Below, piece by piece: positions 1 through 10,767 of a stretch of DNA of 47,649 nucleotides; the first letter of the stretch is position 1; the number at the start of each line of letters is the position of its first letter. The notes under the pieces are model-generated. The model searched no databases. It was not told the origin of the DNA and saw only the letters and a program-made list of their open reading frames with translations. Location: NCBI GenBank assembly GCA_016872645.1, contig VGZH01000044.1, positions 1-47,649 on the forward strand, in the 5' to 3' direction. Source of the DNA: Planctomycetota bacterium (GTDB lineage: Bacteria > Planctomycetota > Planctomycetia > Planctomycetales > Planctomycetaceae). A program made the translations under genes and the position numbers.

Positions 1-69
1 CCGGTTCCATCCGCGATGAACTGCCCGGCGTGTCCGTTTCGCGAGCCGTGCCGTCGCTGGACCGGTTAG
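1..69 (+). CDS. C-terminal end of an unidentified protein with a Cys cluster (partial)
   Basis: Frame 1 is open from the window edge to a TAG at 67-69 and gives the last 22 residues of a protein. The tail contains CPACPFREPC, a tight three-Cys cluster. Clusters of this shape (C-x2-C-x6-C, usually with CPF or CPY) end many Cas4/RecB-like PD-(D/E)XK nucleases, where they help bind an iron-sulfur cluster. That identity is an inference from a short tail, because the nuclease core lies outside the window. It is followed 41 bp later by a small membrane protein gene on the same strand and may belong to the same mobile-element transcript. Confidence 0.4.
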   Translation, partial: PVPSAMNCPACPFREPCRRWTG

Positions 70-110
70 CTGCGGTGATGACCGCATCCCTCCAACCAAT
101 AGGAGATCAA

Positions 111-239
111 ATGGAATCATTATTTGCCGTCGCGCTGCTGGTCGGCGTCGTCTTATTCTTTTTCCAGTCTGGTAAGCGACTCGGCAGCCGCCGCGGCTTC
201 CACGCTGGATGTCGCTGTCGTCGTCGCCGATTCCGCTGA
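111..239 (+). CDS. Small single-span membrane protein with a cationic tail, 42 aa
   Basis: A 42-residue ORF starts at ATG 111 behind an AGGAG box at 101-105, which is why this start is preferred to upstream ones. Residues 3-18 form one hydrophobic segment (LFAVALLVGVV then FFF). The rest is strongly basic, with many Arg and an RCRRRRFR end. The expected topology is a short membrane anchor with a positively charged cytoplasmic tail. It lies between the Cys-cluster protein and the coiled-coil gene at 304 on the same strand. No family is recognised; small membrane proteins of this type can be holin-like, toxin-like or simple anchors, and the sequence does not decide. Confidence 0.5.
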   Translation: MESLFAVALLVGVVLFFFQSGKRLGSRRGFHAGCRCRRRRFR

Positions 240-303
240 CGAGCTTGGGCATTGCTCGATTCATCCGCCTTTCATTTTCACGCATCCCTCAAGGAGACCC
301 GCC

Positions 304-849
304 ATGCCGCTGACCGTGGCTGAAAAAGAACATTGGAAAGAGCGCATCTCACGCCGCATCGACAAGAAGATCGCCGCCATTACCGCGCGCGATCCTGGTC
401 TGTTTGACCGTCTTGGCAGCGAAGCCCGACAGCGGGCCATCCAATCGTTGGGTGTGAGTGAACTCATGGCCGAACAGGAACAACTTGAACAACAGAAGAA
501 AGCCCTGGAGACCCGCGACGGGGTCGTGTGCCGCTTGCTGCTCGCCCGCCTGCGCGGAGTCCCAGCCGAGACGATCGACATGTACTCCATGTGTCGGTCG
601 GAGACCGAGATCGGCAACGCCATCAAAAGTCGTCAGGCCGTCCACGAAGATGAACTGATGCGAGAGCACGAACTCGGCCGCCAGATCGTTCAACTCCGGC
701 TGGAGCGGGAGAATTTGTTGGACACCGTCTTTTTAGCCACCTCACCCATTCAAGTTCGGGTTCTGTGGGAGAAGGTTTCCGACTTGCTCGGTGACGAATT
801 GTCGCAGTTGCAGCGTGCGGCACTGCAGATCCAGCCGCCCGTTGAATGA
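304..849 (+). CDS. Coiled-coil protein of unknown function, 181 aa
   Basis: ATG 304 follows an AAGGAG box at about 290-295. The same frame is open further upstream, but only this start has a ribosome site. The protein is rich in Glu, Gln, Leu and Arg, and residues 45-75 (EQEQLEQQKKALE) and about 115-140 read as amphipathic helices likely to form a coiled coil. There is no signal peptide or membrane segment. It ends 30 bp before a strong intrinsic terminator, so it is probably the last gene of a rightward transcript that includes the 42-aa membrane protein. I do not recognise a family. Its position in the element suggests an accessory or structural helper role. Confidence 0.7.
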   Translation: MPLTVAEKEHWKERISRRIDKKIAAITARDPGLFDRLGSEARQRAIQSLGVSELMAEQEQLEQQKKALETRDGVVCRLLLARLRGVPAETIDMYSMCRSETEIGNAIKSRQAVHEDELMREHELGRQIVQLRLERENLLDTVFLATSPIQVRVLWEKVSDLLGDELSQLQRAALQIQPPVE

Positions 850-879
850 CGTCATCTCTTTCGTGTCGAGAAGAACCAC

Positions 880-919
880 GCCGGGCCGCATGGTGCGGCC
901 CGGCTCTTTTGATTTTCTT
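880..919 (+). terminator. Strong rho-independent terminator
   Basis: A perfect 11-bp GC-rich stem (880-890 with 894-904, loop TGG) is followed by a T-rich run at 905-919. It lies 30 bp after the stop of the coiled-coil gene and ends the rightward transcript just before the convergent gene at 951. Confidence 0.9.
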
Positions 920-950
920 AGCACTCACAGATTCAACGACGAGATGGTGG

Positions 951-1691
951 TCAACTGCGAGGCTTACGGCGACGGCCTTTCTTGTGTGGCCGCTTCGCGG
1001 GCCTCGGCGGCGACGTGAGCTGTTTCTCCAGCCGAGCACTTTCAGATTTCACTTCCGCCAAGAATTTGGCAAGCTGCTGTAGCTCAAGCTGATCGGCAGC
1101 GTGACGCAACTTGACTCTATCCCGAATCGAATCCAACTCCCCGACAAACTTCTTCGCGCGGGCCAGCCAGAGATTCCCTTCGCGAACGATCTGCTGGATG
1201 GCATCGGTGGGATTCTTCGGGAGTTCGACACGACGGCCGTGACCTGGTGGGCGGCCTTCCAGTTTTCGGATCTCGGCGTGGAGTCGGGTGGGAGACCAGC
1301 CGTTAGTGGCAGCGTTAGCAGCCATCTCGGTCCGCTTCACCGGGTTCTTGATGGTCAACAAGTACGGCAGGTAGCCCCAGTGCAGCGGCAGCCTGTTTAG
1401 GCGGCGGAGCATGCAGAACTCTACAAGCTGTTCAGCCGAGTACGACTTTGCGAACAACTTGAAGCGTCTCAACGCACCTGAATCTAAACCCTTCTTTACC
1501 GCCAACTCCTCCGTAGTGGTGCCGTTCTTGATCTGTTCGGTGTTGGCCTCAAGCCCCATCGCATGATGATCTTTGACACGCTGAACAATCCGTTCGGCTT
1601 TGGCAGTCACCGCAGCCTGTTTTGCAGAAGCTGTCGTTGGTGGTGTCGTTGCCATTTTCAGCCGACTTTGTTGTTTTCGTGTCTTCCGCAT
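951..1691 (-). CDS. DUF1016-N-like protein without a nuclease domain, 246 aa
   Basis: The central part (roughly residues 95-150) has the pattern of the DUF1016 N-terminal (YhcG-type) helical domain: a WGYLPYLL block, then an ENP/KNP-like turn, then NGWSPTRLHAEIRKL. In YhcG-type proteins this domain precedes a PD-(D/E)XK nuclease. Here the C-terminal 80 residues are instead a charged helix and a very basic tail (KRPHKKGRRRKPRS), which suggests nucleic-acid binding. Start chosen: ATG 1691, 13 nt after AAAGGAGGGG; ATG 1654 is an alternative with no visible ribosome site. It is the last gene of the leftward replication-gene cluster. The family call rests on the motif pattern only. Confidence 0.6.
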   Translation of the reverse strand: MRKTRKQQSRLKMATTPPTTASAKQAAVTAKAERIVQRVKDHHAMGLEANTEQIKNGTTTEELAVKKGLDSGALRRFKLFAKSYSAEQLVEFCMLRRLNRLPLHWGYLPYLLTIKNPVKRTEMAANAATNGWSPTRLHAEIRKLEGRPPGHGRRVELPKNPTDAIQQIVREGNLWLARAKKFVGELDSIRDRVKLRHAADQLELQQLAKFLAEVKSESARLEKQLTSPPRPAKRPHKKGRRRKPRS

Positions 1692-1811
1692 CTCGAGCCA
1701 AACCCCTCCTTTCCAGAGGAACTGCCTGCAACGGCCCTGCTGCAGGCAGTTCATCTTACTCTCGCTACCGTGGCGTGGCTCGATCCATGCCTGCATCGCG
1801 TACCGCCGCTA

Positions 1812-3023
1812 CTACTGCACACAAAAATCCCTCGCGGTAGTCAAATAGCGCTGAATCAAAGTCTCACGAGTCCAACGAGGGAGCTGCTCAAGCACACCCG
1901 AAACCGCATCTTCAGGGTGGCCAGCCGCAAGACAAATGGACCGGATTCGGTCGAGTGTGTCCACCGCAGGAGCGGACTGCCAAGTATCAACAAGCTCCCC
2001 AAGCCCCAATGCATGATCTTGTACCCACGTCCAGAGGAGGTCGTCGAACTGCATCACAGCGGCGACGTCGAGGAAAGCGTAAATCAAGGTGCTCAAATTA
2101 ACGAATGCGCGATCCGCCAAGCGGCAGCGGAGCCGCGGTCCATCGAAGTCCAAAAGATAATCATTGAGATCAAAAGGCGTACTCCTCATATCTGGACTGT
2201 GCGTGCCTTGCCGCCAACGCGAGCCGGAGAATTCTTCGGCGTGCAGGAACACTGGCGATTTCACAGCTTCAGGATTTTCGCCCAAGATAATGACTTGAGA
2301 GCCCCGACGAAGAACCGTCGACTTGTCATTCAGTTGCGCGCTCACGCTGACTGCCCTCCTGAACCGCAATTCAGTCGCAAAATGAAACAACGGGTTTCTC
2401 CGACTGATTGTTTGCGCGTGAGAGGGAGAGCTGGGGTCTGCGAGTCCAAGCTGCAGCCAGCGCTGGGTCTCGCGATCTTTGACGAATGGAGCCAAATCCA
2501 TCATGACTTCCTCAACCACAATCCGCTTCTCGCCGTCATAGAAATACTCTGCGACGGCATACCAGTTATGAGCCTGCGCGGCCGCTTGAATCGCGTCGAT
2601 CAAATCGCAACTGGAATAACACCGATAAGGCAGGCGAGTTTGCGCAGCGAGTTTTCCGAGCGGTATAGTCAGCAGTGCCGGAACAATGGACTTCAGCCGC
2701 TCGACGACGAAGTCTGCGTCCTGCCCAAAATCCACTAGAGCCTGCGCGGCTTCGGCGAAGGATCGGCAGTTGCCGCTGTTGACCGATTCAACGAACCGCT
2801 GCGTGATCTGCAGGATTTTGCAGTCGGCTTGGATCGGCGCGTCTTGGCCGTGTGGCAGCCCCAATTCAGCGATCGGCGACAAGCACAGCCGAGTCAGGTT
2901 GGCGGGTGTGATCAGCGTGGCGAGGTCGATGTCGAGCTTGGGCTTTTCTTGGCCGGGAATCGGCAAGGATGACGTCGAGCCGAGCTCATCCATGTGAAGT
3001 TCTGAAACGGGGATGTGGGACAT
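1812..3023 (-). CDS. Unknown element-borne protein, 403 aa
   Basis: The gene starts at ATG 3023 directly behind TTTAGGAG, so the start is firm. The product has no signal peptide and no membrane segment. It is a mixed alpha/beta, probably cytosolic protein with several Trp/Tyr-rich stretches (NWYAVAEYFYDGEKR near residue 150) and a hydrophobic helical patch near residue 325. I recognise no catalytic motif or family. It lies between the primase-polymerase gene and the DUF1016-N-like gene on the same strand, behind a 12-bp GC-rich hairpin. Cargo or a replication/maintenance factor of the element are both possible. Confidence 0.65.
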   Translation of the reverse strand: MSHIPVSELHMDELGSTSSLPIPGQEKPKLDIDLATLITPANLTRLCLSPIAELGLPHGQDAPIQADCKILQITQRFVESVNSGNCRSFAEAAQALVDFGQDADFVVERLKSIVPALLTIPLGKLAAQTRLPYRCYSSCDLIDAIQAAAQAHNWYAVAEYFYDGEKRIVVEEVMMDLAPFVKDRETQRWLQLGLADPSSPSHAQTISRRNPLFHFATELRFRRAVSVSAQLNDKSTVLRRGSQVIILGENPEAVKSPVFLHAEEFSGSRWRQGTHSPDMRSTPFDLNDYLLDFDGPRLRCRLADRAFVNLSTLIYAFLDVAAVMQFDDLLWTWVQDHALGLGELVDTWQSAPAVDTLDRIRSICLAAGHPEDAVSGVLEQLPRWTRETLIQRYLTTARDFCVQ

Positions 3024-3086
3024 AACTGAAAACTCCTAAAGGATGGCCGCCCCTGCAACGAAAGGGACACGACCACGACGGATGAG

Positions 3087-3113
3087 GCCAGCCGCCGACC
3101 ATCGGCGGCTGGC
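3087..3113. repeat. 12-bp perfect hairpin in the primase-403 aa intergenic region
   Basis: Bases 3087-3098 pair perfectly with 3102-3113 around a 3-nt loop. The stem is almost all G:C. It sits 64 bp upstream of the start of the 403-aa gene and is not followed by a T run on the minus strand, so it is more likely an RNA processing or stability element, or a protein site, than a terminator. The rest of 3024-3297 holds no gene I can support. Confidence 0.6.
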
Positions 3114-3297
3114 GGTGCGGACAGGGGATGTGACGTCGGCGGCTCGGGGGAGGGCGGGCGAGTTGGGCGGTAGTAATCATGAAGGGCTTCGTTGTCATGG
3201 TGGTTGTATTTGGTTTCTAATTACCGTGGTTTCTATGTACTGGTGACTGACCACACCGGATCAACAGGCTGTGAATGCGACCCTCCTATTCGGGCCG

Positions 3298-4440
3298 TCA
3301 ATGCCGCCGGGTAGCCCGGTAGGCGGCACCGCGGTCCCGATACGGCCGCCCAGCACCCGTAGCGACACCCCGGCTTCGTGCGCCGTACGGCAGCTCCGGC
3401 GGTCGATAGCCGGCGGCGGAGAGTGCCGCGGCGGCGGCGGCAAAATCGCCGTGATGCTCCATCGCTGCGAAAAACTCGAACCTCGAATACGACTTATTTT
3501 GTTCCAGCGGCGCGGCGCTCGACGAAAATACAAACAGACGTTCGCAGCCGGCGTAGTCCAACGAAGCACTCGTCCCCGATGACTTCCCGGGACGCCGCCA
3601 AAACGAGACGCCGCCGCCACCCTCGATTACGAAGGACCAACCGTGACGCTCAAGTAACTCCGGCCAGTCGGCGCGGGCGTTAAAGAGGTCGCCTGGCCGC
3701 ATACCAGTTGCCAATGCGGTTGTTTTCGAATCCGATTCCAGTCGATTCTTATTTTCTGCTGCGGGAATTTGATTGAACGACCGTGATATCGCGTGCAGGA
3801 CTTCGCGCTCGGACTCACTGATCGTCGCAACATCCAGGAGCGTCCGGGGGGTCATGTACTGATACATCCGCATCGACTTGTGGCATTCCGGCGGGGACGG
3901 GAACGTCGTCACATAGCTCCGCTCACCCCTCGTCTCGACAAGCGTTTTGATTTGCGGGATGCCGTTTCCGTCCGGGACCATCCCATGTGCGAGGATCGTG
4001 CTCCCCTCGATCACCGGACAGCGAAAAAAGGCGTGCAGCCCCGGTCGTGGCGTCTGCACGAGGACCAGGCGGTCAAGCACGTCCGGTGCCGCCTGACTAA
4101 CCTGATCGAGCCACGGCTGGATGAGGTCTGGCACATCCACGTCGATTGCCTCCAGGCCGCCAGAGACTGTCCCGCAAACGACGCCGAGGCCGTACGGGAT
4201 TGCGCCACGGCAATACCAGCATTCTAACTCGTCGGTCGTAGGCAGCCGGGTCTGGAACGGAGACCAACTACGATGAGGGTCTGCACCTGGAATCGACGTG
4301 TGCATGGGAAGGAGGTGCCCGGCGGGGGCCTTCTCCCCGTCCTTGGAGATCGGGATGACCGAGATCCCGGCAGCGACAAAGGCGCGGGCCCAGGCCAGGA
4401 CGACGGAGTGAGGGACATAGATCGGAGTGTAGTCGGGCAT
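3298..4440 (-). CDS. Bifunctional DNA primase/polymerase (prim-pol, AEP superfamily), 380 aa
   Basis: The protein matches the prim-pol N-terminal domain of mobile elements: an N-terminal helix with AGISVIPI and a Lys-rich loop, YGLGVVCG, the metal-binding AIDVDVP (Asp100, Asp102), and PRPGLHAFFR with His136. These elements prime and extend DNA during replication of plasmids and phage-like elements. Residues after about 230 are less conserved and contain RPGDLFNARADWPELLERHGW, a common linker in element replicases. Start chosen: ATG 4440, behind GGAAGGAA; the longer frame back to 4656 crosses an AT-rich non-coding stretch. It is transcribed after the DUF927 helicase, so the pair forms a replication module. 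Confidence 0.85.
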   Translation of the reverse strand: MPDYTPIYVPHSVVLAWARAFVAAGISVIPISKDGEKAPAGHLLPMHTSIPGADPHRSWSPFQTRLPTTDELECWYCRGAIPYGLGVVCGTVSGGLEAIDVDVPDLIQPWLDQVSQAAPDVLDRLVLVQTPRPGLHAFFRCPVIEGSTILAHGMVPDGNGIPQIKTLVETRGERSYVTTFPSPPECHKSMRMYQYMTPRTLLDVATISESEREVLHAISRSFNQIPAAENKNRLESDSKTTALATGMRPGDLFNARADWPELLERHGWSFVIEGGGGVSFWRRPGKSSGTSASLDYAGCERLFVFSSSAAPLEQNKSYSRFEFFAAMEHHGDFAAAAAALSAAGYRPPELPYGARSRGVATGAGRPYRDRGAAYRATRRH

Positions 4441-4744
4441 GATGTTCCTTCCGGCGAAGGGCAGTGGTGTGTTGTTCGGCATTTTGGGAACAGCGAAAGG
4501 GGTGAGGTCACAAGAAGTTGCGGCAGATGTTCCCTTGTTCGCAGTGTTTTGGGTTCGACAGCGCGTATCTATATAAAAACAACAAATACTCGGATTGATA
4601 AATCCAATTGGTGATGGACATATAGAGTCATGTAATAAATATAGAACAGGGAACAATTAAAAAAGAAAACCTCTAATTACCCTGCCCTCATGGACTTCCG
4701 ACTGTTCCCTCCCTGTTCCCGTTTTCGCCAGATCGAGAACAACG
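4441..4744. other. AT-rich gap with iterated TGTTCCC motifs; candidate replication origin
   Basis: This gene-free gap separates the primase and helicase genes. TGTTCCC occurs at 4528-4534, 4703-4709 and 4714-4720 on the plus strand and at 4649-4655 on the minus strand. Each copy is followed by a second TGTTC: after 1 nt (4528-4540), after 0 nt (minus strand, 4655-4644) and after 4 nt (4703-4720). Between them, 4565-4680 is unusually A+T rich and includes the small hairpin GGATT-GATA-AATCC. Direct iterated motifs flanking an AT-rich block beside replicase genes are typical of iteron origins. That role is inferred; operator sites for a repressor would look similar. Confidence 0.45.
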
Positions 4745-7075
4745 TCATGCCACAGCCTCCTCGGTCCCCATCACCGAGCGGATCGCGTCCCACCGGATCG
4801 CGACCATCTCGATCGTGTCCGCGTCGATCCTGACCTTCAACGTCGTCTTCCCGTCGCTGGCCCGAAGCCACTCTCTGTCTTTCCAGAGCCGGCGGACTGC
4901 GGCCGCCTCGAAGCCTCTCTCTTCGAGAACCTTGTCCAACCGGTGTGGATACAGCGCCAAGCACTCTGGCTCCCCTTGGCGGCCAGTAACGCGCCATCGA
5001 CCTGCCCATCCAGTAGATGGTGCGTATAGACGGTTCGAAGACGTCCAGAGATCACTCTCATGGGCGTGGCACCATCCGGCGACGTACCTGAGAGCGACTG
5101 CGGCGCGATCGGCTTCATCCGTCTCTGCGGTAATCTCAGCCCAGAGAGCGTTGGCGGTCTGCAGATTATCCCACGGCAGGATGCCGGCTTGACACGCCAG
5201 TTCCTCAGTGACATGCAGCACAGCGAAGTGCTCGGCCATCCGACCTGCCACGGAGTTGGTACCAGCTCTCTGCTGAAAGAACTCTCGGAGTTGCCGGAAT
5301 CGTTCTTGAATGACGGGCCAACTGTCCTCGCTATTGATCAAGTGTCGGACGAACCTCGGACCAGCGTGACCATAATGCTCGCGGATGACCTCGTTGAGCT
5401 GACTGACAAGGGAGGCAGATCCAGCAGTCAGTTGCCCGAATGGGCTACCCCACATCTCAAGTGCCCGTGCCCGCGTCCCACCATGCTCGGTGTAGGTCGT
5501 CAATGGACCTTCGCCGGTGGTACACATCACCGTACGCCAGACATTGGTCCGAGCTAAACCGCGTTCACTCCCGCGGCCACGTCCGCGCCCGTTTGTGACG
5601 TCATAGATGGTCTGTCCGATGTCGTGTCGGTTTTTTGCGCGCTGCGTGTCGTCGATGATTAACGGGATGCAATCGTTGATCGCCGAAGCCCGTTCGAGCC
5701 ATACACGCGTCGCATCCCATGTACCGATCGCTGCTGCTGGGGAACGCTCATCGGGACACCCCCAACACGACGCTCCGAGGCGTAGGGTTGACGTTTTTCC
5801 GGTGGAAGTCGCGCCGGCGTAGCTGATGATGAAGTTATGAGTGGCGAGAGGAGCCAGTAGCGGCGGTGCAAGACTGGCGATAACGCCCAATCGCGCGCGG
5901 GGGAATTGTTGCAGAGGCGTAATGGCATTGCGCCAAGTGTCGAAATCTCCCTTATCGTGCAAGCCGGCGACAAGCTGCTCGTCGCCGACATCGAATCCCC
6001 GAAACTCGACCCGCTCCGTTTGTCCTTCTGAGGACTCATTTGAGACCAATTGCCGGCCACATAAAAACAACTGATACTCATCGTTGCCTCTTAACCATCC
6101 CATCCGGTGTGATACTCGTGATTGCGGCAGGACGTCGAAGTTCGCAACTTCAATGTCGAGCAAATAATCCACCAACGCCTCGGCATTGGTGCTCGTGACG
6201 GGCAATCCATAGTCAGCCAATTCGACGATCGTACGAGACTTCGCAATAGTGCCCCGTGCTACGATCCGTGTGTGCCATGCTCCACCGCGCCACCACGCGA
6301 GCTCGACGGACTCATCGCCCCCATCGACATCCGTAAGTCTTCGTGTGGCCAACACAGGGGCCGGCACGAGCACCTCGGGGCCTGCGGTGCGCGACACGAT
6401 TCCGTCGGCCGTGAGGATCCACTTTGGCGGTACGATCGTGTCGGCCGGACATGGAGCGTCCGGCAGGACTTCATGGACACGTACAGCGTTATCGTCACCA
6501 CGACCAGCAACCGGCCGACGAAGAAGATCACGGGCTTGGGCGACAAGCGCAGCGACGCGTAGGCCGCGAACGCCATGTTCGCGAAGGCGATTTACAATCG
6601 AATTGCATGCGATCTCCAGCCCATTGGGCTGGGCGTAGGCGGCAGCTTCGACTGCGAATGTGAGCACTGAACTACGATCAGAAGTGCTTTGGTCGGCACG
6701 AAAGAGTGATAGAATCGCGTCAAGAAGGTCAGCGTGTGTGTCGCCATTATGAGTGACACGATAGGCGACATCACCATGTTCGCGACCGAGGTCGGCTAGC
6801 CACCGCAGGATTTTTCGCCGGTCCTCGTCCGGCCATTCGATTAGAAGGCTAAGTTCAGCGACGATCCGCCCGCCATCGCCGCAGCGCCGTCGGAGTTCTT
6901 CGAGGCGGGCGGGATCGTGGATCGTATCACCATCGACCACGACGGCTTGACCGTCGATGAAGAGCGCGAAGAGGGTGAGGCGGCCCGTTGGCGTCGATTC
7001 GTGCGAATGATCGGCGGCAGGCGGATTGCCCGCAGGAAAGGCGGATGGTATAGTCATCTTGCTTTGAATCCTCAT
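4745..7075 (-). CDS. DUF927-type helicase/ATPase of a mobile element, 776 aa
   Basis: The C-terminal half carries a P-loop ATPase: Walker A GATSTGKT at residues 421-428 and Walker B PLIIDDT at 471-477. These are followed by GRGRGSERG near 500 and MCTTGEGPL near 525, a layout seen in DUF927 proteins, which are replicative helicase-like ATPases of phages and plasmid-like elements. The N-terminal 200 residues look like an accessory domain. No membrane segment is present. Alternative starts are ATG 7075 and ATG 7057; neither has a strong ribosome site. It lies downstream of two small DNA-binding genes and upstream of the primase-polymerase on the same strand, consistent with one replication operon. 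Confidence 0.8.
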   Translation of the reverse strand: MRIQSKMTIPSAFPAGNPPAADHSHESTPTGRLTLFALFIDGQAVVVDGDTIHDPARLEELRRRCGDGGRIVAELSLLIEWPDEDRRKILRWLADLGREHGDVAYRVTHNGDTHADLLDAILSLFRADQSTSDRSSVLTFAVEAAAYAQPNGLEIACNSIVNRLREHGVRGLRVAALVAQARDLLRRPVAGRGDDNAVRVHEVLPDAPCPADTIVPPKWILTADGIVSRTAGPEVLVPAPVLATRRLTDVDGGDESVELAWWRGGAWHTRIVARGTIAKSRTIVELADYGLPVTSTNAEALVDYLLDIEVANFDVLPQSRVSHRMGWLRGNDEYQLFLCGRQLVSNESSEGQTERVEFRGFDVGDEQLVAGLHDKGDFDTWRNAITPLQQFPRARLGVIASLAPPLLAPLATHNFIISYAGATSTGKTSTLRLGASCWGCPDERSPAAAIGTWDATRVWLERASAINDCIPLIIDDTQRAKNRHDIGQTIYDVTNGRGRGRGSERGLARTNVWRTVMCTTGEGPLTTYTEHGGTRARALEMWGSPFGQLTAGSASLVSQLNEVIREHYGHAGPRFVRHLINSEDSWPVIQERFRQLREFFQQRAGTNSVAGRMAEHFAVLHVTEELACQAGILPWDNLQTANALWAEITAETDEADRAAVALRYVAGWCHAHESDLWTSSNRLYAPSTGWAGRWRVTGRQGEPECLALYPHRLDKVLEERGFEAAAVRRLWKDREWLRASDGKTTLKVRIDADTIEMVAIRWDAIRSVMGTEEAVA

Positions 7076-7120
7076 GAACGCCCGCCGGCTGGCACCGAGC
7101 GGGTGTTCGCGTTTAGCAGA

Positions 7121-7384
7121 TCAAATATCTGCGAGCGTTGACCTGCCGGCGCAAGCCCCACGGCTCAGCCAACGATCGAGGGCACGCCGGTCATAGCGGA
7201 CGATTCGGCCTATCTTCGAGAAAGGCACATAGCGTGCGCTTGTCCAGTTGCGAAGCGTGCCGATGGCGACTCGCAAATAGAGCGCGGCCTCGATCGGCGT
7301 CAGCCAGTGGCTTCGTTGGTCGTCGAGGGGTGGCGTACTCGCAACGGCCGTGGTGCTAGGAGTTCGAACGGCGCTACGAGGCAT
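7121..7384 (-). CDS. Excisionase-type helix-turn-helix protein (HTH_17), 87 aa
   Basis: Residues 27-75 follow the MerR-like helix-turn-helix of excisionases and AlpA-type regulators: LTPIEAALYLRV, then TLRNWTSARYVPFSKIG, then RIVRYDRRALDRWL. Such proteins bind DNA at element ends or promoters and act as directionality factors or activators. The start overlaps the end of the upstream 80-aa gene by 11 bp, so the two are translationally coupled. The DUF927 helicase follows 45 bp downstream. The DNA-binding call is solid, but the split between excisionase and replication regulator is not decided by sequence. Confidence 0.8.
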   Translation of the reverse strand: MPRSAVRTPSTTAVASTPPLDDQRSHWLTPIEAALYLRVAIGTLRNWTSARYVPFSKIGRIVRYDRRALDRWLSRGACAGRSTLADI

Positions 7385-7616
7385 GGCTGTGAGCCTCCTC
7401 GACTCTCGACGAGATCACGCCGCGCTCCACGAGCACCTGCTCGATGAGTGGCAGCACTTCGCGCGAGATCATCCGATGCCCCGCGATGATGGGACACAGA
7501 CGGTCGTCGATCCGGCGGTCATATAGCAGGGTGCTGATGTCACGCGGCCGTACAGGACAGCCACAGTGGTGCTCGATCTCGCGAGCAGCTCCCGACACGG
7601 TGAGCAGGTCAACCAT
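7374..7616 (-). CDS. Small putative DNA-binding protein, 80 aa
   Basis: This short soluble protein begins LTVSGAAREI and continues with RPRDISTLLYDRRIDDRLCPIIAGHRMISREVLPLI. That is the layout of a small winged helix-turn-helix that reads a regulatory site, with a predicted recognition helix near residue 25 and a wing (CPIIAGHRMI). It is the first gene of the leftward cluster, starting 147 bp from a nested inverted-repeat region, and it overlaps the next gene by 11 bp. A regulator of the replication operon is the likely job. The exact family is not recognised. Confidence 0.6.
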   Translation of the reverse strand: MVDLLTVSGAAREIEHHCGCPVRPRDISTLLYDRRIDDRLCPIIAGHRMISREVLPLIEQVLVERGVISSRVEEAHSHAS

Positions 7617-7762
7617 TTCGGATCCTCCAGGTGGTCATGACGGCGATCACCATCGTCGTCGTGTGTAGTCCCTGGAGATCTGGCTCACGCGCGGAGGTCT
7701 GGTCGTTTTAGTCAAACAGCAATGGCCATCCTTGACATGAGTTACGTCGCGCAACGACGGAT

Positions 7763-7845
7763 ACCAAATAATTTTGGATGATCCATTTTCATCCAATTGA
7801 TCCACTTGCGAAGGCGATCAAACGGCGACAATTCAATTATTTGGT
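7763..7845. promoter_or_regulatory. Nested inverted repeats upstream of the replication operon
   Basis: An outer 10-bp inverted repeat (7763-7772 ACCAAATAAT with 7836-7845) encloses an inner 8-bp one (7774-7781 TTGGATGA with 7789-7796). The motif GATCC recurs at 7781-7784 and again after the inner repeat. The tract is A+T rich, lies between the 366-aa gene and the leftward operon and overlaps the former's stop codon. An operator or promoter region is the best reading. A recombination or origin accessory site is also possible. Confidence 0.45.
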
Positions 7846-8937
7846 GCTCAACCTACGTCGTGTCGTGGCAGGTCGACGTCGGCGGGTGGGGTTATCATCC
7901 CGCTTGGGAATGTCGGCTTTTTCAAAAGGAGTGACGCTCCGATTTCGGTAACCGGACGAACCAAGTTCAGGATGCTCGCGATTGAATTTCTCCGCCGTGC
8001 GGAGGTAACGGCTCCAATTTTCAAATTTAGGAAGCTGGTACTCTGGCTCGCCGTTCAATCTCAACCAGTTCCAAACGGCTCGTTCTCGCTCTTGCTTCTT
8101 ACTGGGAAGCGAGTCCCTTTCCATTCGCAAAACAGCAAATTGAAAACTCTCGTACGCCAAAGAGGGCTGCCGCGACAAACGGGGCACATGGCTGTCTTCT
8201 GTTCGCGAAGTTGTGCGTGAAGTCGTTCGTGATTCTAAATCGACGCCGTGTTGTCGAATCGTGCGCAAGATTGTAGTTCGAGCGTCCCCCAGCCTTTCGA
8301 TCAATTCGATGGTTTCCAGATTGTTCAATTCATAGGCGATTTGTCGGAGGGGAGACAATTTACGTGCGACAGCACGCAGCTTCGATTTGATTTGCCGAAG
8401 TAAGGTGACGTTCGTGAATTCACGATGAGGCGATGGTCCATCGGAGCGATACCCCCACGATCCCTTTGCAATCAGTTCGGCGAGTTGCGTGAGTAATCGC
8501 AACACGGGCGGAAGTTTGTCGATGAAGCCATTGGCCTGTTGCTGCAGCAACGTCCAGGCGTTTTTTGAAACTGGACTGAGTTTGAACCGCTGGTCCTCGA
8601 TATCACTCACGAATGCAGGATCCACCTGCTGAATTGCATCAATAGTTTCGCGATGCCCTTCACTTCCCCAATGATTCTTGTAGTCGTCCCAAACAACTTG
8701 GAGTTGATCAAGAAGACGGTCGCACAATGGCGGTCGCGACCGGGATGGGAAAAGTCTTCGCAATCCTCCTACTGAGACACGAATCTGGTCGCAACATCCG
8801 GAGACACTCTCTGGAAATCGAGCCTCAGAATTCGGAGCCTGAGTCCAATTGTATTCCGCCAAGAAGGGGAGGCGGATCATCGACTCTCCAAAAACGAACG
8901 CTTGTTCGTACGATTCTGGATGAAGCCGAGTAGCCAT
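7837..8937 (-). CDS. Unknown element-borne protein, 366 aa
   Basis: This soluble protein has no signal peptide or membrane segment. It is helical in its middle part (about residues 75-250). A short Ser/Thr/Arg repeat (RTTSRTTSRTE near 240) links to a C-terminal third that ends in a very basic tail (RRRRPATTRRRLSTK), so binding to nucleic acid is plausible. Start chosen: ATG 8937, because the upstream in-frame TTG at 8973 has no ribosome site. It sits alone between the integrase and the replication operon, a spot that often carries cargo in integrated elements. I recognise no family and assign no function. Confidence 0.6.
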   Translation of the reverse strand: MATRLHPESYEQAFVFGESMIRLPFLAEYNWTQAPNSEARFPESVSGCCDQIRVSVGGLRRLFPSRSRPPLCDRLLDQLQVVWDDYKNHWGSEGHRETIDAIQQVDPAFVSDIEDQRFKLSPVSKNAWTLLQQQANGFIDKLPPVLRLLTQLAELIAKGSWGYRSDGPSPHREFTNVTLLRQIKSKLRAVARKLSPLRQIAYELNNLETIELIERLGDARTTILRTIRQHGVDLESRTTSRTTSRTEDSHVPRLSRQPSLAYESFQFAVLRMERDSLPSKKQERERAVWNWLRLNGEPEYQLPKFENWSRYLRTAEKFNREHPELGSSGYRNRSVTPFEKADIPKRDDNPTRRRRPATTRRRLSTK

Positions 8938-9035
8938 GATCCGGTACTTTGGAATGGAGTGTAGAACAACCAACCAGCCTGGAAGTCACGGCTTAGCAGA
9001 ATGACCTCTGCCGTCAGTAATTCAATCAATAAATC

Positions 9036-10379
9036 TCAATCGCTGACCAACCGCTCCAGCGCCTCCCGCTTCGCGTCCATGCCCAGGTGAGTGTACCGCT
9101 TGGTCATCGTCAGCGTCGCATGTCCCAAAATCTCTTGGACCAGCAGCGGATTGACCCCTTCTTCCTGCGCCCGGCTCGAAAATAAGTGCCGCAGGTTGTG
9201 CGCCCGCGTGAACTGCGGACAGCCGATCTCGGTGGTGAGCTTGCAGAATTCGAGTTGCACGCGCTTCACCGGAATCTGTCCCATGCGGCGGCAGTAGGCC
9301 GTGACCAACTGCCGACGCTGCTTGTCGGTCGTGTTGGGTTCCTTGGCCGTCAGGTCATGCGCCAACTTGGCCAGCTTCTCGCGAAAGGCGCGGTCGGATC
9401 CGAACTCGGAAATCAGCCGGCGTCGGCCATTGAAGTATTCCTCATTCAAGAACACGAAACCGGCGCGGCGCTCGCCGATCCGCTGTTCGAGGATGGTTCT
9501 CATTTCGCGGGTGATCGGGAGTTGTCGGCGGCGGGCGGTCTTCACGCGCCAGTGCAGTTCCGGCTTCGAGCAAATCTGAATCGAGCCGGCATGGAAATCG
9601 ACGTTCTCGATGAGCAGGTTCGTCAACTCGCCGACCCGCATCCCGTACGTCACCAACGCCTGAAAGATTCCCCGCTGCCAGTCATTGCAGGTGGTGAAGA
9701 ACGCCTTCTGTTGCTCCGGCGTGAAGATTGGCAGCCCCTCGTCCGGCGCGTCCACGTCGCGCAGGTTGTCGATCGGGAAGCGGGAGAACGGGTTCTCGGC
9801 ATAAGGCGGAAGCATGCGTCGTCGAGCCGCCCAGTTGAACGCCGTCCGGCAGGTGCTGAGGATGAACTTCACACCGCCAACCGCATAGACATCCCGCTTT
9901 CCTTTTTTGGCTCCGTTGCGAGTGCGAGTTTGGCCGCGTAGCCAACGCACAAAATCCTCAACGCTCCGCTCATCGACCGAATCGACGGCGGTGATTTCGG
10001 CGGCGGCGCAGAACTCCCCGAACCGATCGAGGGCCGCGCGGTAGCGATCCTGGGTGCGCCACGCGAGCTTCTGGACGTTGGTCACGAAGTCCAGATAGCC
10101 CTTGGTCAACACCGTCGGAGCTGTTCGCTCAAAACCGAGCGGCGACGGTCGGTTCTCACCTAGCGCGGCAGCGACTTTGGCGGCTGTGGCGCGGGCGACC
10201 TGCAAGTTGCCGTCCACGCGGCGGCGTTCGGATTTGCGGTTCTCGCGGTAGTAAAGGTAGTACGTCTCACCGCGTTTGTAGATCGTGACCGGGCCGACCC
10301 GGTCTACTTTGACGTCGCGAATGTGACCACCGGCGGTCTGGCCTGTGTGCCCCACGGGGCCGCGTGCTTTCCGAGGCAT
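9036..10379 (-). CDS. Tyrosine recombinase / integrase, 447 aa
   Basis: This phage-type integrase has an Arg-rich N-terminal arm-binding region (residues 1-75), a core-binding helical domain (about 90-190) and a catalytic domain. The catalytic set is visible: Arg248 in GMRVGEL, Lys280, His394 and Arg397 in HNLRH, His420 in ILGHATL, and the nucleophile Tyr429 in KRYTH. It recombines element and host att sites. The gene begins 140 bp from the 3' end of tRNA-Ser(CGA) and is transcribed away from it, in the same direction as the tRNA. All catalytic residues are present, so the enzyme is probably functional. Confidence 0.95.
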   Translation of the reverse strand: MPRKARGPVGHTGQTAGGHIRDVKVDRVGPVTIYKRGETYYLYYRENRKSERRRVDGNLQVARATAAKVAAALGENRPSPLGFERTAPTVLTKGYLDFVTNVQKLAWRTQDRYRAALDRFGEFCAAAEITAVDSVDERSVEDFVRWLRGQTRTRNGAKKGKRDVYAVGGVKFILSTCRTAFNWAARRRMLPPYAENPFSRFPIDNLRDVDAPDEGLPIFTPEQQKAFFTTCNDWQRGIFQALVTYGMRVGELTNLLIENVDFHAGSIQICSKPELHWRVKTARRRQLPITREMRTILEQRIGERRAGFVFLNEEYFNGRRRLISEFGSDRAFREKLAKLAHDLTAKEPNTTDKQRRQLVTAYCRRMGQIPVKRVQLEFCKLTTEIGCPQFTRAHNLRHLFSSRAQEEGVNPLLVQEILGHATLTMTKRYTHLGMDAKREALERLVSD

Positions 10380-10520
10380 GATCCTGAAGCTCCCGACGGG
10401 TTCTCATAGAAATGGGAACCAATCTTTCACAAAAAGTTTCACAATGGCGAATTGCAGAGCTTACGCCTGTCGTGAAACTGCTTCAAGGATTCAAGTTATG
10501 GAAACCACTAGAAAATGAGC
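10380..10520. other. Integrase promoter / probable attachment-site region at tRNA-Ser 3' end
   Basis: These 141 bp separate the integrase start from the tRNA 3' end. Elements of this type cross over within the tRNA 3' sequence and keep one att copy here. It contains imperfect repeats of TTTCACAA (10427-10445), which may be arm-type integrase sites. I found no second copy of the tRNA 3' end elsewhere in the window, so the other att must lie left of base 1 if it exists. Confidence 0.55.
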
Positions 10521-10606
10521 GGAGAGGGAGGGATTCGAACCCTCGGTACCCTTGCGGGTACACTGGTTTTCGAGACCAGCACAATCGGCCGCTCTGTCAC
10601 CTCTCC
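10520..10606 (-). tRNA. tRNA-Ser (anticodon CGA)
   Basis: On the minus strand an 87-nt tRNA folds fully. The acceptor GGAGAGG (10600-10606) pairs with CCTCTCC (10521-10527). The anticodon arm CTGGT-CTCGAAA-ACCAG gives anticodon CGA, which reads UCG. The variable arm TACCC-GCAA-GGGTA is long, as expected for tRNA-Ser, and the T arm contains GGTTCGAATCC. The discriminator is G and CCA is not encoded. The integrase next to its 3' end suggests it is the integration target. Confidence 0.95.
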
Positions 10607-10660
10607 AACGCAACGAATTGCGTCATTCGCGGTTGCCCACGAGGGGGGCGGATAATAGCG

Positions 10661-10679
10661 GGCGTTTTGTTGAAACGCC
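10661..10679 (-). terminator. Hairpin downstream of the thioredoxin-like gene
   Basis: A 7-bp stem (GGCGTTT at 10661-10667 with AAACGCC at 10673-10679) lies 89 bp past the stop of the gene ending at 10768. There is no clear T run, so terminator function is only possible. Confidence 0.35.
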
Positions 10680-10767
10680 AAGTGAGGGAATTCGCGCGTT
10701 GCGGAGTCATTCTTGCGAATGTAAAGCCCACGAAATGCAACTCGGATGCGGGGCTTTGCGAACAGAT

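Follow-up and report, generated by a model that had tools for sequence, protein, structure and literature searches.

A putative SaPIbov1/PICI-type replication origin behind the DUF927 helicase gene of an integrated planctomycete element

A 304-b gap that separates a DUF927 helicase gene from a Prim-Pol gene (positions 4441-4744 of the window, by which we mean the whole 47.6-kb stretch of planctomycete DNA analysed here) contains clustered repeats that are very probably the start point for copying of an integrated planctomycete mobile element. On sequence grounds, the gap is best read as a replication origin of the SaPIbov1/PICI type. We consider it highly probable that the gap serves as the element's origin and that the DUF927 helicase acts as an MCM-like, self-loading initiator, which would read the word TGTTC(C/G)C and load two hexamers across a melted spacer. 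This reading is built on results of the present analysis, namely the clustering of the repeats, their layout, the homology of the helicase, the recurrence of similar arrays, and the match between iteron and C-terminal domain in close pairs of helicases.

The word TGTTCCC occurs five times in the gap, at 4528, 4703 and 4714 on the plus strand and at 4649-4655 and 4486-4492 on the minus strand. The original prediction had named four of these positions, all correctly, and had overlooked the copy at 4486-4492; its further claim that each named copy is followed after 0-4 nt by a second TGTTC holds for 4528, 4649 and 4703 but not for 4714. Five of the nine TGTTCCC copies of the window fall in the gap, for which dinucleotide shuffling predicts 0.066 and none of 5,000 shuffles reaches five, and the shorter core TGTTC is found there 10 times against 0.85 expected from the same kind of shuffle (0/5,000 reach 10). 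Over its full length, the window shows no enrichment of the word, because its nine copies (5.78 expected) are equalled in 15 of 100 shuffles; the enrichment is thus one of clustering. Genome-wide, TGTTCCC is present 556 times in 5.76 Mb, compared with 379 for the reversed control word, and at this density the probability of at least five copies in such a gap is 1.6e-10, or approximately 3e-6 over all gap-sized windows. Even frequency of the word across the genome had been put forward as the result that would speak against an origin, and the count shows that its density is not even. Likewise, the pair pattern TGTTCCC-N0-12-TGTTC occurs 16 times in the genome, with three of those occurrences in the gap, and its reversed control seven times. 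It should be noted that fivefold 7-mers are not unique to the gap, as GC-rich coding DNA at about 3155-3420 reaches five to six copies of CGGCGGC/CGCCGCC words.

The repeats are TGTTC-core iterons grouped into four clusters on both sides of an AT-rich spacer, together making up the putative origin at 4443-4741. Numbered on the helicase strand from the base after the stop codon, the cores lie at 4, 25 and 36, at 90 and 97, at 203 and 211, and at 253, 266 and 296; the first core is only 4 b past the helicase stop, which places the array immediately 3' of the initiator gene. The cluster closest to the helicase stop, outer cluster A (4703-4741), comprises TGTTCCC at 4703-4709 and 4714-4720 on the plus strand and a degenerate TGTTCTC at 4735-4741 on the minus strand. 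Inner cluster B (4642-4655, minus strand) consists of TGTTCCC at 4649-4655 followed directly by TGTTCTA at 4642-4648, and inner cluster C (4528-4542, plus strand), inverted relative to B, consists of TGTTCCC at 4528-4534 and TGTTCGC at 4536-4542. Outer cluster D (4443-4492) combines TGTTCCC at 4486-4492 on the minus strand with degenerate plus-strand copies, TGTTCGG at 4473-4479 and TGTTCCT at 4443-4449. The two inner pairs face each other, with 106 b from 97 to 203 on the helicase strand. Between them, the spacer at 4541-4643, a putative unwinding element, is 66% AT, and no other 103-b stretch of the window equals it, so that the predicted AT-rich block flanked by repeats is real and represents the AT maximum of the window. 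The small hairpin ascribed to this block is only weak, but short inverted repeats do exist there (e.g., 4565-4580).

The gene upstream of this array encodes a DUF927 MCM-like helicase and replication initiator of 776 aa (4745-7075, minus strand), with a C-terminal HTH_56 (Cch) winged helix in Pfam at about residues 650-775 that we propose as the iteron reader. By both profile and fold, this protein is clearly homologous to SaPIbov1 Rep and SCCmec Cch. A profile built from 11 planctomycete helicases matches 8tch (SaPIbov1 Rep) with an E value of 7.9e-69 and 5dgk (SCCmec Cch) with 3.4e-33. The same two structures are the best PDB matches of the AlphaFold2 model of the window helicase (mean pLDDT 80.1) in Foldseek (1.1e-23 and 1.7e-19, respectively), and VIA-align with this model gives Z scores of 33.8 and 31.2. 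Residues 653-774 of the model, taken alone, match TcpK, a winged helix whose structure was determined together with oriT DNA (VIA-align Z 12.8 over 100 residues). A DUF927 AAA+ helicase carrying a C-terminal winged helix is the initiator expected of a SaPIbov1/PICI-type replicon, with self-loading being predicted here.

The gap is bordered on its other side by the gene for a Prim-Pol primase/polymerase (3298-4440, minus strand; 380 aa from a probable ATG at 4440; PF09250, E 1.3e-12, and translation), and the predicted placement between helicase and primase genes is thus borne out. All further genes described here are also on the minus strand. Beyond the helicase gene lie those for an 87-aa HTH_17 protein, excisionase/AlpA-like (7121-7384; PF12728), which matches the excisionase/transcriptional regulator family phrog_66 of PHROGs at E 4.4e-7, an 80-aa protein without a family (7374-7616), a 378-aa protein without a family (7837-8973) and the tyrosine integrase of the element (9036-10379; PF00589, phrog_1). 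The integrase gene ends beside a tRNA-Ser(CGA) gene (10519-10606), the probable integration site. The integrated element spans position 10379 of the window to the left contig edge; the contig begins inside the element, so only one of its sides is seen. A second att copy was not found, the five genome matches to the tRNA end all being tRNA-Ser genes, and no long direct repeat that could represent attL/attR is present within 1-10700. Searches of Pfam, PHROGs and PADLOC at E 0.01 found no match for the 378-aa protein or for a 403-aa protein (1812-3023), also of the element. A 281-aa protein (951-1796) scores below threshold against DUF1016_N (23.3 bits; the cut-off is 32.8) and is weakly similar to PDC-S02 and AbiEi in PADLOC; it is possibly defence cargo of the element. 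No packaging family was detected among the nine proteins scanned in PHROGs, the left part of the element being missing from the contig, and no Rep of a classical iteron-plasmid family (Rep_3, RepA_N or similar) was matched in Pfam among the 10 proteins scanned of the left 11.8 kb, the missing left end of the element lying outside the contig. Positions 3298-7616 have no DNA-level plasmid matches, and a single-protein helicase scan of genome_contigs returned no match. The host genome has no SSU rRNA (16S) match despite a stated completeness of 99.99%, the gene probably having been lost in assembly.

The gap could also be a former origin, in which the layout has been inherited and this copy no longer works in a decaying element. 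Half of the cores (5/10) are degenerate and one end of the element is not seen, which would be consistent with decay. However, the helicase, Prim-Pol and integrase frames are all open, the inner clusters and the spacer have been kept, and a relative (G005) also has an open helicase frame together with an array of its own. We regard loss of function as unlikely.

The closest known counterpart is found in the Staphylococcus aureus record PT1028, whose helicase ORF001 matches 8tch along its full length (569/569 residues). The first 450 b downstream of that helicase gene carry nine copies of AGTTCCC, at 3+, 12+, 23+ and 47-, at 90+ and 99+, at 196-, and at 239+ and 281+, a number reached in none of 85 control windows. 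The plan is the same and the word almost the same (AGTTCCC versus TGTTCCC), since the window reads 25, 36 | 90, 97 | 203, 211 | 253 on the helicase strand. In both loci, the gene for a DUF927 MCM-like Rep with a C-terminal winged helix has GTTCCC iterons in four clusters on its 3' side, and the inner clusters are inverted, lie about 97-106 b apart and enclose an AT-rich block. They differ in that the window comes from another phylum, that identity is only approximately 20% over the aligned fold, that a Prim-Pol gene follows the origin in the window, and that no pathogenicity-island genes were seen in the window.

As far as the published accounts go, the features of the gap agree with those of SaPI and PICI origins. 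The C-terminal domain of SaPI Rep is described as recognising iterons directly 3' of the rep gene (PMC7581432), and in PICI origins an AT-rich region is described as always being flanked by two sets of iterons, an arrangement said in that source to be common to no other replicon (PMC6092414). The same source places the primase of PICIs as a whole before rep or fused to it, whereas in the window Prim-Pol lies after the origin, a difference in gene order. It further reports such origins from Gram-negative and Gram-positive bacteria; here they are seen in a planctomycete element, in tailed phages and in plasmids. SCCmec elements offer a second comparison: Cch, also a DUF927 protein, has the fold of the window helicase (5dgk, Z 31.2), and the C-terminal domain of Cch2 is stated to bind iterons downstream of the cch2 gene, but Cch2 belongs to another helicase family and its putative origin has three AAGTG iterons (PMC7581432). 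Thermus ICETh2 resembles the present element in combining an integrase, a Prim-Pol and a helicase on a small integrated element; however, the account of it, so far as it extends, describes no origin, and it reports the Prim-Pol to be dispensable for ICETh2 replication (PMC7693054).

To investigate recurrence, copies of any single 7-mer were counted in the 400 b 3' of each helicase gene, with overlapping windows elsewhere in the same loci serving as controls. Eighty of 192 loci were kept at an earlier selection step. The locus set had 98 scored loci, one without a match and 36 dropped for a missing C-terminal part or less than 300 b of downstream DNA, and the addition of eight phage records and removal of eight near-duplicates gave 61 non-redundant loci, the window included; eight of 20 phage records and six of 22 plasmid records were examined. 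At least five copies of one 7-mer are present in 33 of the 61 loci, compared with 31 of 6,095 control windows, while 28 of the 61 fall short of five. At least four copies with an inverted gap of 60-140 b were found in 35 of 61 loci versus 66 of 6,095 control windows, and in 34 of those 35 the inverted gap is more AT-rich than the helicase gene. Arrays of at least five copies occur in 28 of 45 loci scoring at least 175 bits, in five of eight named phages and in none of eight loci below 131 bits. Inner gaps are seen in 45 of 52 arrays with a median of 97 b, the spread of these lengths being bounded by the search itself, which was limited to 78-125 b.

The iteron word varies from locus to locus, being TGTTCCC in L019, TATTCCCGG in L020 and GGGGTGAA in L024, and, among phages, GGTAACCGA in THSA-485A, AGGTGAAACA in FP_Epona and GGGGAACA in phiAH14b. 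In the nearest relative (L012, same genus, 55% identical), GCGAACA occurs six times at the same place (0/67 controls), without a clear inner cluster B. Two loci have their GTTCCC array about 2 kb from the helicase gene, after it in L136 and before it in L135, with inner distances of 107 and 119 b. Streptococcus thermophilus phages, which have their origins 3' of primase/helicase genes, represent a related case. Weaker arrays were found in the phage loci L129 (four copies, 5/154 controls), L131 (six, 1/143) and L132 (four, 7/143). Four of the six examined plasmids also have arrays, namely Geobacillus pSJEF4-2-2 (16 copies, 1/294 controls), a Streptomyces virginiae plasmid (13, 0/206), pFP4 (12, 0/183) and p1_EUCAMar (five, 0/168). 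In pSJEF4-2-2, a DUF927 protein and a CHC2 protein are the sole replication genes in an eight-gene, possibly incomplete, table. Its 13,067-b record appears to be a near-dimer, with 987 of 1,000 bases repeating at an offset of about 6676, and reflects either a true dimer or an assembly artefact. No array was found in the named phage L133 or in the plasmids L163 and L167, and the planctomycete loci L025, L027, L034 and L121 have fewer than four exact copies, with TTTTCCC-like runs visible in L025 by eye only.

Six strong new loci (L169-L173 and L175), obtained afterwards by searching 392 genomes of the phylum, served as a held-out set. Agreement was obtained in four: L170, L171, L172 and L175 have 7, 9, 12 and 12 copies, respectively, with no control window as high, and L175 displays the full plan with a 114-b inner gap; L169 has no array and that of L173 is degenerate. 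Weak partial matches gave no array in L178, L179 and L181 and four copies in L177 (7/60 controls), a set from which L180 (too little DNA), L176, L182 and L184 were left out. In one genome (loci L013/L174 and L014/L183), the N-terminal part of the helicase is on one contig and the C-terminal part on another, the latter followed by GTTCCC repeats and a gene that starts like a Prim-Pol. The search for repeats near related helicases, whose absence would have weighed against the original prediction, thus found them in relatives, with a changing word and two arrays about 2 kb away. An iteron-type origin with an AT-rich unwinding region is the reading favoured by local enrichment, the array of the nearest relative, the arrays 3' of many DUF927 helicases and PT1028.

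This recurrence also bears on the possibility that the repeats are operators of a transcription factor and the AT-rich block a promoter region for the Prim-Pol gene, with no origin present. The gap is indeed the 5' region of that gene as well, and an HTH_17 gene is nearby. Nevertheless, no sigma-70-like promoter was detected in 4300-4900 (the scan covers the sigma-70 type only), the arrays recur 3' of helicase genes that have other next genes (e.g., in PT1028, THSA-485A, FP_Epona and plasmids), the L136 array is situated beyond the Prim-Pol gene, and two inverted inner clusters about 100 b apart are found again and again. Regulation of the Prim-Pol gene is thus a very unlikely sole purpose of the repeats, and an origin accounts for them better.

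Which protein reads the iterons is best addressed by closely related helicases. Among 54 loci, seven pairs have helicase cores 77-88% identical; the two pairs with winged helices 83-86% identical share their iteron and the five with 51-59% do not. These seven comprise two triplets and one pair, and the core-identity cut of 0.75 was set after the list had been seen. Among phage contigs, the flanking DNA of L159 and L156 is 81% and 84-89% identical on the two sides, yet no alignment is possible across the final 250 b of the helicase gene and the adjoining origin; the helicases are mostly more than 80% identical in the N-terminal half and 45% identical in the last 50 residues, and the iterons differ (GTCGCAC in L159, CTGTGAC in L156). 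A third contig, L151, has the iteron of L159 and a C-terminal part 80-85% identical to it. From a comparison of L159 4986-6530 with L156 2310-3285, the winged-helix-coding end has apparently been exchanged along with the origin and neighbouring DNA, while the two phage contigs are otherwise similar. Because the iteron follows the C-terminal winged helix and not the core in the closest pairs, the helicase is the likely reader, and, as far as sequences can tell, its own C-terminal winged-helix domain likely binds the iterons. In a comparison of 41 divergent loci, the similarity of the iterons shows no significant correlation with that of the winged helices (Spearman 0.09, with a Mantel p of 0.07; partial 0.03, p 0.29), and among the 159 pairs with core identity of at least 0.42 the difference in winged-helix identity is small (0.40 versus 0.35, in 35 and 124 pairs). 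Iteron polarity, scored as GT in the 5' half, was not significant (15 versus 6, p 0.08, of 44 words); an inward C-over-G bias in the iteron words (33 versus 4) is post hoc and a lead only.

The 80-aa or HTH protein had been suggested as the binder, and we found no evidence for either. Binding by one of them, for excision or regulation, would agree with the HTH_17 family of the latter and its phrog_66 match. However, the sites of an excisionase should lie by the attachment site, which is 6 kb away, and iteron identity tracks the helicase C-terminal domain in close pairs; this alternative is extremely unlikely, and the helicase's winged helix is the better candidate on the basis of close pairs and fold. 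LexA-type operators have the form GTTC-N7-GTTC with fixed half-site spacing, and alphaproteobacterial LexA boxes were ruled out because the spacing of neighbouring GTTC cores varies (3, 4 and 7 b); a tandem duplication of coding DNA was rejected because the gap is non-coding, and a terminator or promoter as its main feature was rejected after the promoter scan of 4300-4900.

By analogy with SaPI Rep and MCM-type helicases, from which binding, melting, bidirectional loading, replication and the choice of primase are extrapolated, initiation at the proposed origin may proceed as follows. The C-terminal winged helix of the DUF927 helicase would read the TGTTC(C/G)C iterons, and two groups of subunits would assemble on B and C, the opposed inner clusters separated by about 106 b. 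Once the AT-rich spacer has melted, two hexamers would be loaded, probably in opposite directions, after which Prim-Pol or a host primase would prime and the host polymerase would copy the element.

The origin type itself is already known from SaPIs and PICIs; what is new is a host from the planctomycete phylum, a rep-ori-primase gene order, and the finding of tailed phages and plasmids that follow the same plan. A literature search, thin on subscription journals, found no paper on the spread of the PICI-type origin to these replicons. Taking the observations together, we lean towards the view that the "PICI-only" origin is the replicon that DUF927 self-loading helicases use in general, regardless of lifestyle, be it in integrated Planctomycetota elements, in tailed phages from Bacillota and Pseudomonas, or in circular plasmids from Geobacillus and Streptomyces. 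Specificity would reside in an exchangeable cassette of the helicase 3' end (winged helix) and adjoining iterons, swapped together to escape incompatibility, and each of the inner clusters, facing each other across about ten DNA turns, would load a single hexamer, a counterpart in bacterial elements of the head-to-head loading of MCM. The gap and the helicase constitute a small, testable candidate replicon for Planctomycetota, for which we know of few origin-based tools, and the plan allows origin and initiator to be predicted, from sequence alone, in many phages and plasmids that carry DUF927 helicases.

Two natural domain-swap sets, L064/L075/L073 and L170/L171/L172, provide material for learning how the winged helix chooses its iteron. 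The latter three loci, from the same phylum as the window, have CTACACC/ACTACCA arrays in which the inner gap measures about 45 b rather than about 100 b, and represent another origin plan within the same helicase family.
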